Of a stretch of DNA of 64,000 nt, positions 58,279 through 63,999 are shown one piece after another. The notes beneath the pieces are model-generated. The model was not told where the DNA came from and searched no databases. It worked only from the letters and a program-made list of their open reading frames with translations. A program made the position numbers and the translations under genes. Each line of letters begins with the position of its first letter. Position 1 is the first letter of the stretch. Source of the DNA: Longispora fulva (GTDB lineage Bacteria; Actinomycetota; Actinomycetes; Mycobacteriales; Micromonosporaceae); the NCBI RefSeq assembly GCF_015751905.1, contig NZ_JADOUF010000001.1, positions 3,658,001 to 3,722,000 on the forward strand, written 5' to 3'.

Positions 58279-58309
58279 GGCCCCTGGCGCCCTCAGGGTG
58301 CCAGGGGCC
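58279..58309. terminator. Hairpin between convergent genes
   Basis: GGCCCCTGGCGCCCT (58279-58293) pairs with AGGGTGCCAGGGGCC (58295-58309) with one G-T wobble; the innermost pairs must open to form a loop. It covers the stop of the TetR gene and lies just after the propeller gene. Confidence 0.7.
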
Positions 58310-58874
58310 GGGGCCTCGGCCGGTACCCGTCGGCGACCAGCCCCAGGACGAACGCCCGGGCCCGCTCAGCCGTCCAGCCGTACTCGGCGTGCCGCACCCG
58401 GACGTGCACGTACGGCAGGGTGACCGAGGTGAAGAGCACCACGGCGTACGGCCACGGCTCGGCGACCGGCCCGAGACTGCCGTCGGCCGTCCCGTCCTCG
58501 AGGATCCGCACGAACGGGGCCAGCAGGTTGACCTCCGCCCCGGCGTCGTCGACCAGCGGGGCGTCGTGCAGGAACATCTCGGAGTGGGCCAGCAACGCCA
58601 GGTGCCGGTCGCACACCGCGCACAGGGCGTCGAGTGCGGCGGCGAGCCGGTCGGCCCCGGTACCCGGCATCGTCAGCACCGGCCAGAGCAGCGTGCGGTA
58701 GTCCTCCGCCAGTTGGCGGCGCAGTTCCCCCTCCACGGAGGTCCGGGTGACACCGTGTCGCCACACCGTCGCCCGGGACACCCCGGCCGCCTCGGCGATC
58801 CGGTCGAGGTTGAGCGCCTCCCAGCCGTGTTTCTCCAGCAGCGTGACGGCCACGTCGAACAGGGCCCGGTTCAT
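58293..58874 (-). CDS. TetR-family regulator
   Basis: About 193 residues from ATG 58874 (AGGGAG upstream); ATG 58910 is possible. N-terminal helix-turn-helix: ALFDVAVTLLEKHGWEALNLDRIAEAAGVSRATVWRHG. The ligand domain is all helical, with a WTAERARAFVLGLVADGY end. It is divergent from the HIT-domain gene over a 77-base spacer holding TGAAAC and GTTTCA 27 bases apart, a possible operator. It probably represses itself and perhaps that gene. Confidence 0.85.
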   Translation of the reverse strand: MNRALFDVAVTLLEKHGWEALNLDRIAEAAGVSRATVWRHGVTRTSVEGELRRQLAEDYRTLLWPVLTMPGTGADRLAAALDALCAVCDRHLALLAHSEMFLHDAPLVDDAGAEVNLLAPFVRILEDGTADGSLGPVAEPWPYAVVLFTSVTLPYVHVRVRHAEYGWTAERARAFVLGLVADGYRPRPRPLAP

Positions 58875-58891
58875 CGGTGGGCACTCCCTTG

Positions 58892-58931
58892 TTGAAACTG
58901 GCTGTCTCATGTTGCGATGAAGTTCGTTTCA
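58892..58931 (+). promoter_or_regulatory. Promoter/operator zone between TetR and HIT genes
   Basis: TTGAAA (58892-58897) and CGATGA (58915-58920) have 17-base spacing toward the HIT gene. TGAAAC (58893-58898) and GTTTCA (58926-58931) form widely spaced dyad arms. Weak evidence only. Confidence 0.3.
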
Positions 58932-58951
58932 CCCATTCTGTGGAGGACGTC

Positions 58952-59398
58952 ATGGCGAACACAAGCGGGGACGACTGCTGGTTCTGCGCGGACGACCGGG
59001 GCGCGGACGCACCCCCGGGCGGCTGGCTGTACGAGGACGAGCACTGGCGGGCCGGGCACGCGCCGCCGCAGTTCGGTCCGGCCGGTCTCGTGGTGCTCGA
59101 GTCCCGGCGGCACGTCCTGGACGTGTCCGAGCTCGACCCGGCCGAGGCCGCCGGCTACGGACCGGTCCTCGGTCGGCTGACCGGCGCGGTCAAGGGGGTC
59201 ACCGGCGCACCGCGGGTCTACACCTGGGCGTCGGCCGCGCACACCCCGCACCTGCACGTGTGGGTGCTGCCGTGGACGCCGGACCAGCCGGTCGGGCCGG
59301 CGTTCCTGGCCAGGACGCACCGGTACGCGTGCACGGCGCGGGAGGCGGAGGAGACCGCCGCCGCGGTGCGCGCGGTACTCGACGGCGGGCCGGCGTAG
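58952..59398 (+). CDS. HIT-like nucleotide-binding protein
   Basis: 148 residues from ATG 58952, after GGAGGAC. N-terminal CWFC (Cys9, Cys12) recalls the zinc-binding start of HIT hydrolases. The C-terminal motif reads TPHLHVWVLP: His100 and His102 are present but the third histidine of HxHxH is Trp104. The middle histidine, the nucleophile in the family, is kept, so activity on nucleoside phosphates is possible. Divergent TetR may control it. Confidence 0.75.
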   Translation: MANTSGDDCWFCADDRGADAPPGGWLYEDEHWRAGHAPPQFGPAGLVVLESRRHVLDVSELDPAEAAGYGPVLGRLTGAVKGVTGAPRVYTWASAAHTPHLHVWVLPWTPDQPVGPAFLARTHRYACTAREAEETAAAVRAVLDGGPA

Positions 59399-59454
59399 GC
59401 TCTGAGGTGCGGCGGATCCGCCGCCGACGGGGGCGTCACGACTGGGGGGCCGGC

Positions 59455-59673
59455 ATGGCCGCCTTTCCGATCAACTCCGCCCCGCTCGCGCCGGCCCGTG
59501 ACCGGCGGCATCTCTTCGACCCGTACGACGTCGAGGAGTTCACCGACCAGCGGTGGCTTCCCGACGACGGAACGGACACCGAGGCAGACGAGGGACGGCT
59601 CCTCGCCGGGCCGCCGGAATGGCACCGGCACCTCGTCGTCGAGGCCTCGGGCGGCCACCGCCGCCACGGCTGA
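59455..59673 (+). CDS. Small hypothetical protein, 72 aa
   Basis: ATG 59455 after GGGGGGC. Hydrophilic, acidic in the middle (DPYDVEEFTDQRWLPDDGTDTEADEG) and basic/histidine-rich at the end (HRRHG). No signal peptide, membrane helix or known motif. It is convergent with the Cys-rich peptide gene, with a hairpin between. The coding potential is reasonable but not certain. Confidence 0.5.
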   Translation: MAAFPINSAPLAPARDRRHLFDPYDVEEFTDQRWLPDDGTDTEADEGRLLAGPPEWHRHLVVEASGGHRRHG

Positions 59674-59678
59674 ACGGC

Positions 59679-59711
59679 GAAGGGGCCCGGCGCGTCGCGT
59701 CGGACCCCTTC
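59679..59711. terminator. Hairpin between convergent small genes
   Basis: GAAGGGGCCCG (59679-59689) pairs with CGGACCCCTTC (59701-59711), one mismatch, 11-base loop. It lies nine bases past the Cys-rich peptide stop on minus and five past the hypothetical gene on plus. Confidence 0.75.
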
Positions 59712-59719
59712 TCAGCGCA

Positions 59720-59866
59720 CTAGCAGCAGGGGCGCTTGCCGGAGTTGTGCGTGGCCCAGTAGATGCCGTCGCCACCGCAGCCGGGGACGCAGCGGCCCTT
59801 GGCCAGGGTCGCCTTCGCCGTGGCGGTGGGCAGGACCAACGCGAGCACTCTATCGATGATCTTCAT
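59720..59866 (-). CDS. 48-residue Cys-rich precursor peptide, product of the MauE/thioredoxin/ABC/S26 locus
   Basis: A short frame with an excellent ribosome site (AAAGGAGG, six bases before ATG 59866). The N-terminal half, MKIIDRVLALVLPTATAKA, is basic and hydrophobic like a leader. The C-terminal half holds four cysteines: CVPGC (Cys26, Cys30) and a final KRPCC (Cys47, Cys48), with GIYWATHNSG between. It lies on the same strand just below an S26 peptidase, an ABC exporter and two thiol-redox proteins. That fits a secreted, disulfide-linked peptide. Leader cleavage near TAKA or AKG is a guess. No family is recognised with certainty. Confidence 0.75.
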   Translation of the reverse strand: MKIIDRVLALVLPTATAKATLAKGRCVPGCGGDGIYWATHNSGKRPCC

Positions 59867-59904
59867 CGGAAACCTCCTTTGTGGATCTCTGTGCGTGTCA
59901 GGAG

Positions 59905-59934
59905 AGTGTCACCCGAACATTGATATCAGTCAAT
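59905..59934 (-). promoter_or_regulatory. Candidate promoter and dyad before the Cys-rich peptide gene
   Basis: On minus, TTGACT (59933-59928) and GACACT (59910-59905) are 17 bases apart. The box lies inside the dyad ATTGATATCAGTCAAT (59919-59934), in a small AT-rich island 53 bases upstream of the peptide start. It would let the peptide be made in excess over the processing genes. Confidence 0.5.
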
Positions 59935-59943
59935 ACGTAGGCC

Positions 59944-60483
59944 TCACAGCTTCCGCAGGACGACGCCACGGATCCGGTCGACAGCGACAAACCCCTCCTG
60001 CCGCGAGTCGTGACTGCGCCCCGGGTTGTCGCCCAGGATCACCATCCGACCCGCCGGGACCGGGGTGCCCGCGGCCGCGGTCAGCGCCGGCCCGAGGCCC
60101 CCGGGCACCGGGTCGCCCGGCCCCGCCACGAGACGCTTGACGAACCACAGCCGGCCAGCCGCCCGGACCCGGCCGCGCCGACGCCCCACGAAGGCGTCGG
60201 GATCGGCCGGCGGCGCGAGCACGACCACCGGCCCGACCAGGCACCCACCGGACCGGGGCCGGCCGGTCGGATCGGGCCGGACCCGGCCGGCCGACTCCCC
60301 GGCGGGCCGGCCCGGGAGGCGCGGCACCCCGCGGACCCGCCGGACCAGCACCCGGTCCCCGTCCCCGTACGTCGGGGACATGCTGTCCCCCTCCACCGTC
60401 ACCACGACCAGCTCCCGGCGCGCCCACACCGCCCCGCCGACGGCCACGGCCAGCACCGCGCCCAGCACCCACCACACGGTCAC
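59944..60483 (-). CDS. S26-family signal peptidase
   Basis: 179 residues from GTG 60483, overlapping the ABC gene stop (GTGA). One N-terminal TM (WWVLGAVLAVAVGGAVW). Box B EGDSMSPTYGDGDRVLV gives catalytic Ser34. Box D WFVKRLVAGPGD gives general base Lys116. Box E is ILGDNPGRSHDSRQEGFV. All key residues of type I signal peptidase are present, in a compact form. Encoded between an exporter and a small peptide gene, it is probably dedicated to cleaving that peptide's leader at the outer face. Confidence 0.9.
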   Translation of the reverse strand: MTVWWVLGAVLAVAVGGAVWARRELVVVTVEGDSMSPTYGDGDRVLVRRVRGVPRLPGRPAGESAGRVRPDPTGRPRSGGCLVGPVVVLAPPADPDAFVGRRRGRVRAAGRLWFVKRLVAGPGDPVPGGLGPALTAAAGTPVPAGRMVILGDNPGRSHDSRQEGFVAVDRIRGVVLRKL

Positions 60484-62315
60484 ACCCCCTGGTTCCGGTA
60501 TCCGGCGGCCTGCAGACCGAACAGGCGGGCGTACACCCCGCCGGCGGCCACCAGCGCGTCGTGGTCGCCCTGCTCGGCGACGACGCCGCCGGACAGCACG
60601 ACGATCAGGCCGGCGTCGCGGACCGCGCCCAGCCGGTGCGAGATGAGCAGGCTGGTCAGGCCGGCGCGCTGGGCCCGCAGCCGGGTGTGGATCTCGTGTT
60701 CGGCCTCGGCGTCGAGCCCCGCGCTGGGCTCGTCGAGGATCACCAGGTCGCGGTCCTCGCGCAGGAACGCCCGGGCGATGGCGATCCGCTGCCGCTGGCC
60801 GCCGGACGGGTTGACGCCGGCCGCCGGGGCCGCGGTGGACGGGTCGTTGTGGTAGCGGCGGCTGAGCATGGTGTCGTAGCCGTCCGGCAGTCCCGCCAGG
60901 GTCTCGTGCACGCCCGCCCGGTGGGCGGCGGCCTCGATCCGCGCCGGATCGCCCAGCGCGGTCAGGTCGCCGACGCCGATGTTCTCCGCCGCCGTCATCT
61001 CGTAGTTGACGTAGTCCTGGAAAACAGCGCTGATCCGGGTACGCAACACCGCCGGCTCCACCTCGCGGATGTCCACCCCGTCCCAGAGCACCGCGCCCCG
61101 GGTGGGGTCGTAGAGCCGGCAGAGCAGCTTCACGACCGTGGACTTGCCCGCGCCGTTGAGCCCGGCGAGTGCCACGGTGCGGCCGTGCGGGACGGTGAGG
61201 TTCACCCCGCGCAGTACCCATGGATGGGCGTCGGTGTAGCGGAACCACACGTCCCGGAACTCGATGCCGGACCGCAACGCCGGCAGGGCGGCCGGGGTCG
61301 GGGCCACCGGCAGGTCCGGCGCGGCGCGCAGCACCGTCACGTAGTGCTCGAAGAGCAGCAGGGCCTGGTGCCCGGTGGCGACCTGCTGGGCGACGGCGGC
61401 CATCGCGCCCTGCACGCCGACGATCCCGGCGATGAACAGCGCGATGTCGCCGACCGTGTGCTGGCCGCCCTGGGCCGCGCGGGCCACCCAGATCAGACCG
61501 GCCCCGGCGACCACGGCGGAGAACAGCCCGAGGCCGGCCTGGGTGGCCAGTTCGCGGCGGTCCATCCGGTGCTGGGCGGCGTTGGCGGCGCGGCGTTCCC
61601 GGAGCATCCGGCCGCGCAGGAACGCGCCGAGCCCGAACAGCCGGACCTCCTTGGCCGCCTGTTCGGTGGCGAGCATGTCGCGGTAGAACAGCTCCCGGCG
61701 TTCGGCCGGGGTGATCTCCCAGTTGGTCCACGCCCGCCGCCGGCTCAGCACCAGCTCGGCGGCCAGCACCGGCAGCCCGGAGGCGAGCACGAGGACGCCC
61801 ATCACCGGGCTGACCACCCACAGCGAGCCGAGGAACCCGGACACGGTGAGCAGCCCGCCGAGGACGCCGAACGCGCCGTCCACCACCCGGTTGGGCCCCC
61901 GGCCGCCGGACTCGTCGGCGAGTTCGAGCCGATCGAGGAACGCCGGGTCCTCGAACCGGGCCAGGCCGATGATCCGGTCCACTGCCGTGAAAAGCCGCTC
62001 CTTGGCGACCAGCGCGACGGCCCGCTCCATCTCGTTGTGCAGGTAGCGCAGTGCCGCCGGGACCGCCGCCGCGAACAGGCCGACGACGGCGAGGGCCACG
62101 ACCTGCGCCGTCCACCGCGGAGTGACCCCGCTGACCAGCCCGTCGACGACGGACCGGGTCAGCCAGGCCGTGGCGACCGGCAGGCCGGCGGCGAGCAGGG
62201 TGCCGGCGACGTACCCGGCGAGGGAGCCGGGGGCCGCGCGCAGGGTGAGCCCCACGGCGCTCCCGATCCGGGAACAGACCTCCGCGGGCGACAGGCCGAT
62301 CCGGCGGTCGGTCAT
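60480..62315 (-). CDS. ABC exporter with fused membrane and ATPase domains
   Basis: 611 residues from ATG 62315 (ATGA overlap with the thioredoxin-like gene). About six TMs in the first 330 residues, then an ATPase with Walker A GLNGAGKST (Lys391), variant signature NPSGGQRQR, Walker B DLVILDEPSAGLD and the SHR of the H-loop. There is no C39 peptidase domain, so cleavage must come from another protein; the S26 gene follows directly. A half-transporter of this kind would dimerise to export a peptide. An insertion (RRYHNDPSTAAPAAGVNP) sits just before the signature motif. Confidence 0.9.
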   Translation of the reverse strand: MTDRRIGLSPAEVCSRIGSAVGLTLRAAPGSLAGYVAGTLLAAGLPVATAWLTRSVVDGLVSGVTPRWTAQVVALAVVGLFAAAVPAALRYLHNEMERAVALVAKERLFTAVDRIIGLARFEDPAFLDRLELADESGGRGPNRVVDGAFGVLGGLLTVSGFLGSLWVVSPVMGVLVLASGLPVLAAELVLSRRRAWTNWEITPAERRELFYRDMLATEQAAKEVRLFGLGAFLRGRMLRERRAANAAQHRMDRRELATQAGLGLFSAVVAGAGLIWVARAAQGGQHTVGDIALFIAGIVGVQGAMAAVAQQVATGHQALLLFEHYVTVLRAAPDLPVAPTPAALPALRSGIEFRDVWFRYTDAHPWVLRGVNLTVPHGRTVALAGLNGAGKSTVVKLLCRLYDPTRGAVLWDGVDIREVEPAVLRTRISAVFQDYVNYEMTAAENIGVGDLTALGDPARIEAAAHRAGVHETLAGLPDGYDTMLSRRYHNDPSTAAPAAGVNPSGGQRQRIAIARAFLREDRDLVILDEPSAGLDAEAEHEIHTRLRAQRAGLTSLLISHRLGAVRDAGLIVVLSGGVVAEQGDHDALVAAGGVYARLFGLQAAGYRNQGV

Positions 62316-62833
62316 GCCGGGGCCGCGACCTCGTGCCCGTACCCGTGGGCGGCCACCGTCTGGTCGGCGCCCAGCCGGCAGAACGCCGGGGTGGCCTCGA
62401 CGTGGAACGCCCGGGCGACCGGTCCCCTGCGGCGTTCGACGACGACCCGGGCGGCCGGGGCGAGGACCGCGACCATCTCGTGGGACTCGTCGTCCTCGCG
62501 GACCACGCCCAGCGCCAGGTCCCGGCCGCGCCGGGCGGCCTCGGCGGCGAACAGCGGTAGGTGCGAGTGGCAGGTCTCGCACTGCGGGTCGAAGAAGCCG
62601 ACCATGGTGCCGGCGGCCAGCGTCTCGCGGGTCAGCTCCTCGCCGTCGACCGTGGTGGCCTCAAACGCGTCGATCCGCTCGCCGAGGGGCAGCATCGGCT
62701 CGGGAGCGCCCTGTTCGAGGGTCGCGAGCCGCTGGTCGTGGTCGCGGAGCCGGCGGACCAGGGCGACCGTCAGCGTCAGGGTGAGCAGGACCAGCACCGC
62801 GAGCAGGACGACCAGGGAGATCAGGAACGGCAT
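62312..62833 (-). CDS. Membrane-tethered thioredoxin-fold protein (TlpA/MauD-like)
   Basis: 173 residues. N-terminal TM (residues 3-25) and a short coiled region lead to a thioredoxin fold with DPQCETCHSH (Cys85, Cys88) and cis-Pro149 in EATPAFC. This matches MauD/TlpA-type thiol oxidoreductases acting outside the membrane. With the MauE-like protein one gene upstream it probably forms a disulfide-forming or -reducing pair. The target is likely the Cys-rich peptide made by this locus. Confidence 0.87.
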   Translation of the reverse strand: MPFLISLVVLLAVLVLLTLTLTVALVRRLRDHDQRLATLEQGAPEPMLPLGERIDAFEATTVDGEELTRETLAAGTMVGFFDPQCETCHSHLPLFAAEAARRGRDLALGVVREDDESHEMVAVLAPAARVVVERRRGPVARAFHVEATPAFCRLGADQTVAAHGYGHEVAAPA

Positions 62834-62867
62834 GGACTTCCTCCAGGGTGGTGGGCCGGCGTCGGGG

Positions 62868-63410
62868 TCAGTGCCGGCGGGACGCCGGGGTGGGGTGGAA
62901 CAGTGCGCGGATGTCGTCCATCACGGTCACCAGGCCGCCGAGGACCAGGCCGGCGACCGCGGCGACCAGGGACTCGCCGAGCCTGAGGGATCCGCCGGTC
63001 GGCGCGGCGACGCCTCCGGCGACCGCGACGGCCACGAGCAGGAGGTTGCGCAGCACGTGTGCCGGCCCGAGGGGCACAGTGGACGCTCCGAAACACCGGC
63101 AGGTGGTACGCGTCCCGCGCCGCACCGTCACCGTGATCGCCCCGGCGAAGGCGAGCAGCAGCCCGGTGGCCACCGCGAACCCGGCGACCGCGGTGGCACG
63201 CGTCGGGACCGCCAGGAGGACCACGATGGCCGCCTCGGCCGCGACCACGACGCCGGCGACCGGCTTGACCAGGCCGGACGGCACGAGCAGCATCCGGCGG
63301 ACCGAACGGACGAACGCCGCGAACGCCGCCGGTCCGGCCACCTTCGTCGACACCGAGGCGAGGAACACCACGCCGATCAGGCAGCGGCTCGCCAGCACGA
63401 GGTACTGCAT
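62868..63410 (-). CDS. MauE/DoxX-like four-TM redox membrane protein, first gene of the peptide locus
   Basis: 180 residues from ATG 63410, after GGAGGTGACG. Four TMs with the MauE-like N-terminus LASRCLIGVVFLASVSTKVAG and the conserved cysteine pair CRC (Cys104, Cys106) in TTCRCFGAS. MauE and MauD work together in disulfide formation of methylamine dehydrogenase; here no such dehydrogenase exists. The gene leads an operon of thiol oxidoreductase, ABC exporter and signal peptidase, so its role is probably electron transfer for peptide disulfides. Confidence 0.87.
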   Translation of the reverse strand: MQYLVLASRCLIGVVFLASVSTKVAGPAAFAAFVRSVRRMLLVPSGLVKPVAGVVVAAEAAIVVLLAVPTRATAVAGFAVATGLLLAFAGAITVTVRRGTRTTCRCFGASTVPLGPAHVLRNLLLVAVAVAGGVAAPTGGSLRLGESLVAAVAGLVLGGLVTVMDDIRALFHPTPASRRH

Positions 63411-63460
63411 CGTCACCTCCCGAGACCGCGGTCGGCCGGGCGGGCCCACGCGGTGACGGG

Positions 63461-63489
63461 AGTATAAGCACAAAGGACGATCATGATCG
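63461..63489 (-). promoter_or_regulatory. Promoter and 12-bp palindrome upstream of the MauE-led operon
   Basis: On minus, TATACT (63466-63461) is a good -10 box about 50 bases before the ATG. The perfect palindrome CGATCATGATCG (63478-63489) covers the -35 position, where an operator would block RNA polymerase. Confidence 0.6.
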
Positions 63490-63522
63490 ATAGGTTGAGC
63501 CATCGATGTGCGTCGACCATGC

Positions 63523-63999
63523 TCAGGCGGTCAGCACCGCCAGCTCCCCCGCCAGGTTGGCCCGCGCGGCCGACTCCCACCGCGCGTGGCCGGTCGGCGT
63601 GCGAAACAGCGTCGGCAGGTCGAGCAGGTCGCGGAGCACGGCGGCCCGGCCGGCCCGGAACACGTCGTCGGGCACGAAGGCGTACTCGGCGCGCACCGCC
63701 GCGGCGTACGCCGCGTAGTCCGCCGCCGGGCCGGCCAGCACGGCCAGGTCCGCGTCGCACAGCACCTCGCCGTCGGCGTCGCCCGGCTCCGGGTCGTGGG
63801 TGACCGTGAGCCGGACGAGCCGGGCGACCTCGGCGGTGAGCGCGCCGGACACCCCGGCCTCCGGCAGCGCGAACTCGGCGAGCCGGGCACTGCGCTCCTC
63901 GTTGCCGGACAGGTCCGGCCGGTACACCGCGTCGTGGAACCAGGCGGCGAGCCGCACCGCGTCGAGGTCCGCCGCGTGCCCGGCCAGCTCCTCGACCCG
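63523..63999 (-). CDS. HD-domain metal-dependent phosphohydrolase, 5' end beyond the window
   Basis: The frame enters from the right edge (159 codons visible) with VEELAGHAADLDAVRLAAWFHDAVYRP. The HD metal ligands are in WFHDAVY, and the later region is VRLTVTHDPEPGDADGEVLCDADLAVLAG, typical of small predicted metal-dependent HD hydrolases. The start is not in view. It is transcribed toward the MauE operon with 112 bases between, including that operon's promoter. Likely acts on nucleotides; no link to the peptide locus is evident. Confidence 0.82.
   Translation of the reverse strand, partial: RVEELAGHAADLDAVRLAAWFHDAVYRPDLSGNEERSARLAEFALPEAGVSGALTAEVARLVRLTVTHDPEPGDADGEVLCDADLAVLAGPAADYAAYAAAVRAEYAFVPDDVFRAGRAAVLRDLLDLPTLFRTPTGHARWESAARANLAGELAVLTA

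Follow-up and report, generated by a model that had tools for sequence, protein, structure and literature searches.

A compact five-gene locus in Longispora fulva is probably a cassette dedicated to the export and oxidative folding of a small precursor that carries a leader peptide. It lies in a 64,000-nucleotide stretch of contig NZ_JADOUF010000001.1 (positions 3,658,001 to 3,722,000, assembly GCF_015751905.1), which is hereafter called the window and whose own numbering is used below. Head to tail on the minus strand, the genes encode a MauE homologue, a MauD-like thioredoxin, an ATP-binding cassette (ABC) protein, an S26 peptidase and, last, a peptide of 48 residues. Observed directly are the genes themselves, their conservation and the way in which leader, peptidase and Cys-rich core go together. 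With a conserved leader, a variable core and a gene standing beside processing genes, the system is of the type known from ribosomally synthesized and post-translationally modified peptides (RiPPs), and the modification of the core would be disulfide formation, as suggested by the parity of its Cys counts.

Related loci were collected with alignments of the MauD-like protein. A first alignment gave ten loci, nine of them usable and the tenth, from Lachnospiraceae, weak and excluded. A larger alignment (E 1e-8) matched in 84 of 397 genomes of the order and in 37 of 394 genomes of the class, many of the weakest matches being probably other thioredoxins; counted by hand, at least 67 bits were reached in 50 of the former and at least 78 bits in 26 of the latter, with the window's own genome (G000) in both, and a single genome held up to six matches. 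A phylum-wide draw (E 1e-15) matched only G000 and one genome of its class out of 296, and the cassette is thus uncommon in the phylum at large. A plasmid search returned a single record, covering 77% of the query at 41% identity. The stronger MauD matches chosen by score, together with the earlier loci, made up 111 loci, 110 of them distinct; a hand check found three matches above 67 bits outside this set, one of 168.5 bits at a contig edge and two at 87–88. An earlier note on this DNA had proposed looking for the same gene order with small Cys-rich frames beside it, and such a comparison found the complete four-gene set at 91 of the 110 distinct loci. At 102 of the 110 there is a small Cys-rich frame that begins with the common leader, and 15 of these 102 have two or more.

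The precursor census rests on a leader model run over 37,526 start-to-stop readings of the cassette loci (nested starts counted), to whose matches the precursors of loci L161 and L180 were added manually. At E < 1, reversed readings gave four matches and shuffled ones two, none below 0.01, and the one match among unrelated control loci (E 0.071) was L201, a second system of the window's own genome. For the 118 precursors that the model found, the median distance to the closest matched gene of the cassette was 94 bp, and 112 of them lay within 500 bp of such a gene. Leader columns and residue composition were counted on 63 aligned precursors passing inclusion, and motifs and Cys parity on all 120. 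The leader consensus reads M-x-[RK]...[GA]-D-R-L-L-x-x-h-[VL]-P-x-x-x-A-x-A; its P-x-x-x-A-x-A end is exact in 107 precursors, and A-x-A occurs elsewhere before the first Cys in eight. S26 peptidases cut at A-x-A, the rule of type I signal peptidases. An S26 gene and a leader-type precursor occurred together at 100 loci, S26 alone at three, the precursor alone at two and neither at five (p 9e-6, an optimistic value because the rows share ancestry), so that S26 was undetected in five of the eight loci without such a precursor versus two of the 102 with one. Twenty extra regions of 67–112 bits, kept apart from the 110, held a leader-type precursor (E < 1) in 15; L207 has two precursors with a divergent leader (E 3.8), and L212, L216, L217 and L218 have a Cys-rich open reading frame (ORF) without a leader match. 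The window's own genome holds two further MauE-MauD-ABC loci, L201 (C1:188400–201000) with a 7-Cys leader-type frame and L216 (C1:2503900–2516500) with the frame just mentioned.

As A-x-A is the established type I signal peptidase rule, the precursor might instead leave via Sec, with the cassette S26 enzyme as its signal peptidase and the ABC protein doing another job such as immunity; leaders mostly carry K or R near the start, and no ABC gene was detected at two of the 110 loci, that of genome G064 being one. We regard this route as unlikely. The leaders are amphipathic with D-R inside the helix, the moment exceeding the mean of their own shuffles in 65 of 66, and in 71 of 74 at most six consecutive residues free of charged or strongly polar ones precede the P, which is short for a Sec h-region. 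Being amphipathic and lacking a long apolar stretch, the leader does not resemble a Sec signal, and it is strongly constrained, with a ratio of non-synonymous to synonymous differences (pN/pS) of 0.08 in nine orthologues.

Behind this leader the cores are hypervariable, with 4–12 Cys. The post-leader part has a median length of 37 residues, with Cys making up 19%, Gly 11% and Tyr 9%. Of the 120 cores, 113 have an even number of Cys, and once sequences more than 60% alike are removed this holds for 74 of 81; among other small ORFs it holds for 1052 of the 1557 with at least four Cys (Fisher p 1e-6) and for 211 of the 330 with at least six. Even counts are as expected if all Cys are paired. These nine orthologues, all of the window's own family, keep all 10 Cys invariant, share 96% identity in the leader and 78% in the core, and have a core pN/pS of 0.46. 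Such a pattern is that of a frame which is translated and in which the core changes faster, within a Cys constraint. Parity also bears on the reading that the Cys bind metal or stay reduced and that MauE and MauD form a reducing pair. Short Cys-rich peptides can bind Cu or Zn, and ResA and CcmG, which are reductants, are among the closest folds of the MauD-like protein; with the even counts, with His at only 1.2% of core residues (63 precursors) and with no metal gene among the neighbour families found in at least six loci (judged by eye), this reading appears improbable. Three 7-Cys cores occur in the related loci L107 and L108 (G064 and G091), whose odd number possibly reflects a dimer or a free thiol.

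The 48-aa frame of the window is a genuine member of this largely undescribed peptide family. The sequence AAAGGAGG sits 6 nt ahead of its ATG, the encoded peptide holds CVPGC and a terminal CC, and GC content at third codon positions is 0.94. Across the window, the leader model, which was built from 12 seeds including the window peptide itself and rebuilt once, matched this peptide alone (E 3.8e-6) among 1493 start-to-stop readings (nested starts counted). When the peptide was searched against 101 genomes, its own and those of relatives, matches at E 0.1 appeared in 24. Besides the window itself two were convincing, in G055 (E 3.6e-9) and G064 (E 5.5e-4), both adjoining cassette-gene homologues and the latter again after the S26 gene; nine of the remaining matches were inspected, with no comparable frame in any. 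The fourth close relative, at L161 (genome G738), also follows S26 and carries C-V-A-G-C-G-G-D-G...R-P-C-C; the MauD of G738 is identical to that of Streptosporangium pseudovulgare. The window peptide and its relatives in other families share the leader, a C...C...CC core and the same cassette genes alongside, and the four loci span three families. In the MauD tree these four 4-Cys loci form one clade (99/94, bootstrap not settled), and since this clade spans three families, the cassette seems to move along with its type of core. L172 has a fifth 4-Cys precursor, with an unrelated core, and stands elsewhere in the tree.

A chance ORF is rejected on account of this conservation beside the cassette in related loci, across three families, and of the sole leader match in the window. 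The peptide matches no Pfam or NCBIfam model, a point that could be turned in favour of a chance frame beside a cassette serving another target, for example a methylamine-dehydrogenase-like enzyme, but we give that reading next to no credence; the light chain of methylamine dehydrogenase (PF02975) had no match in G000, although the control genomes were silent too, so that this absence on its own weighs little. None of the 11 precursors scanned out of 120, the window's included, exceeded a Pfam or NCBIfam cut-off. The ten scanned besides the window's gave nothing in NCBIfam at E 0.1 and one sub-threshold Pfam match, to mussel Myticin-prepro (15.4 bits, cut-off 28.5). Solved relatives were sought for two precursors, one of which gave a weak match (ribosomal L37Ae, E 0.14) and the other none.

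All five genes listed in the earlier note were found on the minus strand (Table 1), and the short frame with AAAGGAGG, a leader-like N-terminus, CVPGC and a final CC was present as it had described. The MauD/ABC and ABC/S26 junctions are 4-nt overlaps, and the 48-aa ORF starts 77 nt past the S26 gene. MauE belongs to PF07291 (81.7 bits, gathering cut-off 27). The peptidase, which the note had called full-site, scored 58.2 bits against TIGR02227 (cut-off 47), making it a type I signal peptidase with a Ser box G-D-S-M-S-P and a Lys box V-K-R. As for the note's peptide-type exporter without its own peptidase, the ABC protein contains ABC_tran, and the Pfam scan gave no C39 peptidase and no membrane-domain match; exporter models, MsbA_rel for one, begin to align at residue 156, with 241 bits, below the cut-off of 780. 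The note's interpretation is supported in the main: its disulfide-linked secreted peptide agrees with the even Cys counts and the A-x-A site.

Table 1. Features of the cassette and its precursor in the window
Feature	Position	Strand	Basis
MauE-like membrane protein, C-x-C-F-G motif; putative MauD redox partner	62868–63410	-	PF07291; AlphaFold six helices
MauD-like membrane-anchored thioredoxin-fold protein, C-E-T-C	62312–62833	-	AlphaFold and Foldseek match to ResA and 1lu4
ABC protein, probable exporter, no C39 peptidase	60480–62315	-	PF00005, 96.6 bits
S26 signal peptidase, Ser/Lys boxes; putative leader peptidase	59944–60483	-	TIGR02227
48-aa precursor gene	59720–59866	-	conserved in four related loci; leader hidden Markov model E 3.8e-6
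Precursor leader, residues 1–19, end P-T-A-T-A-K-A	59810–59866	-	family P-x-x-x-A-x-A motif
Predicted mature peptide, residues 20–48, four Cys	59723–59809	-	predicted from A-x-A site
Precursor ribosome-binding site AAAGGAGG	59873–59880	-	sequence

MauD is the weakest name in the cassette, with 13.4 bits against TIGR02661 (equivalog cut-off 188.6) and an AhpC-TSA match also under its cut-off. Its AlphaFold model (predicted local distance difference test score, pLDDT, 90.5) has a thioredoxin fold after a single N-terminal helix, for which Foldseek matched ResA, CcmG and a secreted disulfide oxidoreductase of M. tuberculosis; the name is based on this predicted fold and not on the equivalog model. 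Among the cassette proteins, CxxC is present in 110 of 110 MauD homologues and C-x-C-F-G in 99 of 100 MauE proteins. The S26 proteins (n = 103) carry the Ser box in 101, the Lys box in 102 and the GDN/GDS box in 88, and the ABC proteins (n = 105) have Walker A in all and the SGGQ signature in 98. Beyond the peptide lies a TetR-type regulator (58293–58910; TetR_N 33.3 bits). A SARP/BTAD-type regulator stands within 2 kb at 60 of the 110 loci, two of them confirmed by Pfam and none at the window.

For export direction, cleavage, redox direction and release we infer the following course. The ABC protein would recognise the conserved amphipathic leader (...D-R-h-h...P) and move the precursor across the membrane, where the dedicated S26 peptidase would cut after A-x-A, at Ala19 in the window peptide, to release 29 residues. 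The membrane-anchored MauD would oxidise the Cys outside the cell, and MauE might re-oxidise MauD as its electron acceptor. The window product would then carry two disulfides, with a calculated monoisotopic mass of 3002.35 Da. By analogy only, it would most likely serve as an antibiotic-like or signalling peptide. Several points weigh against this secretion and oxidative-folding course. The export role of the ABC protein is suggested by its protein family only, and across the 16 kb examined in G064 an ABC gene is missing, both from the interval between MauD and S26 and from the remainder. The nearest MauD folds include the ResA and CcmG named above, and the six-helix AlphaFold model of MauE (pLDDT 87.3) found its best Foldseek match in the Protein Data Bank at only E 0.67, at which value a DsbB/VKOR fold was not claimed. 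In addition, seven of the 120 cores have an odd Cys count, five leaders lack A-x-A before the first Cys, in class I lasso peptides knocking out the DoxX or the thioredoxin gene singly did not abolish the product (PMC9266682, in the part of the text available), and a leader-type precursor is missing at eight of the 110 loci.

Four of these eight loci are of other RiPP types, one looks decayed, one has a leaderless Cys-rich frame and two are unexplained. Four of the five loci lacking both S26 and the leader-type precursor are graspetide-like or class III lanthipeptide clusters. L134, L192 and L168 belong to one MauD clade, S26 went undetected in them, and they have in common an ATP-grasp reading as well as a small frame with Cys; the ligase of L134, the only one of the three scanned, scored 310.9 bits against TIGR04187 (cut-off 350). 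In them (L134:4287–5603, L192, L168:8216–8500) the MauE-MauD-ABC genes stand beside the ATP-grasp gene and Cys-containing graspetide-like precursors, and a disulfide and an ester on one peptide would be unusual. L129, without S26, encodes a lanthionine synthetase of class III (633 bits, cut-off 575) and a SapB/AmfS-like precursor just under cut-off, followed by two ABC genes and MauE-MauD (L129:1–6555). Such clusters lend something to the idea that the peptides receive further modifications (thioether, ester) from an enzyme whose gene lies elsewhere, disulfides being minor. In these clusters, however, the modifying enzyme adjoins the cassette, and among neighbour families (ORFs of at least 90 aa) every one apart from the SARP-type regulator (64 loci) is confined to at most 13 of the 110 loci; we hold this idea to be quite improbable. 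Neither a lanthionine synthetase nor an ATP-grasp ligase, present in L129 and L134, was found among the nine window proteins scanned.

Among the other exceptions, L200 has a leader with a frame break ahead of the core (L200:6727–6837) and an ABC gene in pieces, which gives the cassette a decayed look; its closest neighbour in the tree is L202. At L044 a Cys-rich frame has no leader and S26 was undetected. This 25-aa frame, between ABC and MauD (L146:6653–6730; L044:7691–7768), is that of Streptosporangium pseudovulgare, whose genome also holds L161, the system with the window's core type. The earlier note had held that homologous loci lacking any Cys-rich frame would speak against its reading, and two such loci, L122 and L195, were seen within the frames examined; the six others are those described above.

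The closest published precedent is decRiPPter (2020), which, in the available text, gave three Streptomyces candidate families with mauE, one also with mauD, each precursor having at least eight Cys, in clusters selected for a peptidase, a transporter and a regulator and containing no other mau genes (PMC7794033). Common to these and the window are mauE/mauD homologues beside a Cys-rich precursor, the homology in the window being given by Pfam for MauE and by fold only for MauD. The decRiPPter families are from Streptomyces only with at least eight Cys, whereas the window peptide has four and the wider set 4–12; that text, as available, gives no leader, cleavage site or S26 pairing, and the families are compared by description only (PMC7794033). 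In the open-access literature, where other work could be missed, it was the only paper found to name the association of mauE with a precursor. New beyond decRiPPter are the leader, the cleavage site, the S26 pairing, the Cys parity, the spread beyond Streptomyces and the window member itself.

Class I lasso peptides (sviceucin, MS-271, humidimycin) offer a likeness in the texts available, namely a DoxX-family membrane protein with a CXXC thioredoxin and two disulfides in the product (PMC9266682, PMC7168211). Unlike theirs, the window leader is apparently cut by S26 at A-x-A, and the lasso B1/B2 protease and C macrolactam synthetase had no match among the nine proteins scanned (58293–63957). 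Staphylococcal TMcin likewise combines a leader peptidase, a DsbA-like protein and an ABC exporter with a disulfide-bonded peptide, the component roles having been tested by mutation, but it differs in an S2P-clan protease, a single disulfide and a transmembrane-helix peptide, according to the available part of that report (PMC13252029). The maturation of methylamine dehydrogenase shares the MauE family and a thioredoxin-fold partner, and differs in that the window protein falls below the MauD equivalog cut-off. Nor is the system of the double-glycine/C39 bacteriocin type, its ABC protein having no C39 domain and its leader ending in A-x-A.

Conotoxins and the nodule-specific cysteine-rich (NCR) peptides of plants also join a conserved leader to a hypervariable core with a Cys framework; the window system differs in being bacterial and in having its own exporter and peptidase, and no homology is claimed. 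We lean slightly towards viewing it as a bacterial counterpart of these systems, in which one machine for export, cleavage and oxidative folding and a fixed leader would serve very different Cys frameworks; duplication and horizontal spread among actinomycetes would have diversified it into an unnamed class of disulfide-rich secreted peptides. If the cassette model holds, a large set of such peptides, all sharing one leader and relying on a common set of four proteins, exists in actinomycetes, and because the leader motif finds the peptides, mining for the class can begin immediately. A testable substrate would become available for those MauE/MauD homologues not tied to methylamine metabolism, and in Streptomyces the cassette may offer a transferable means of having Cys-rich peptides secreted and folded.

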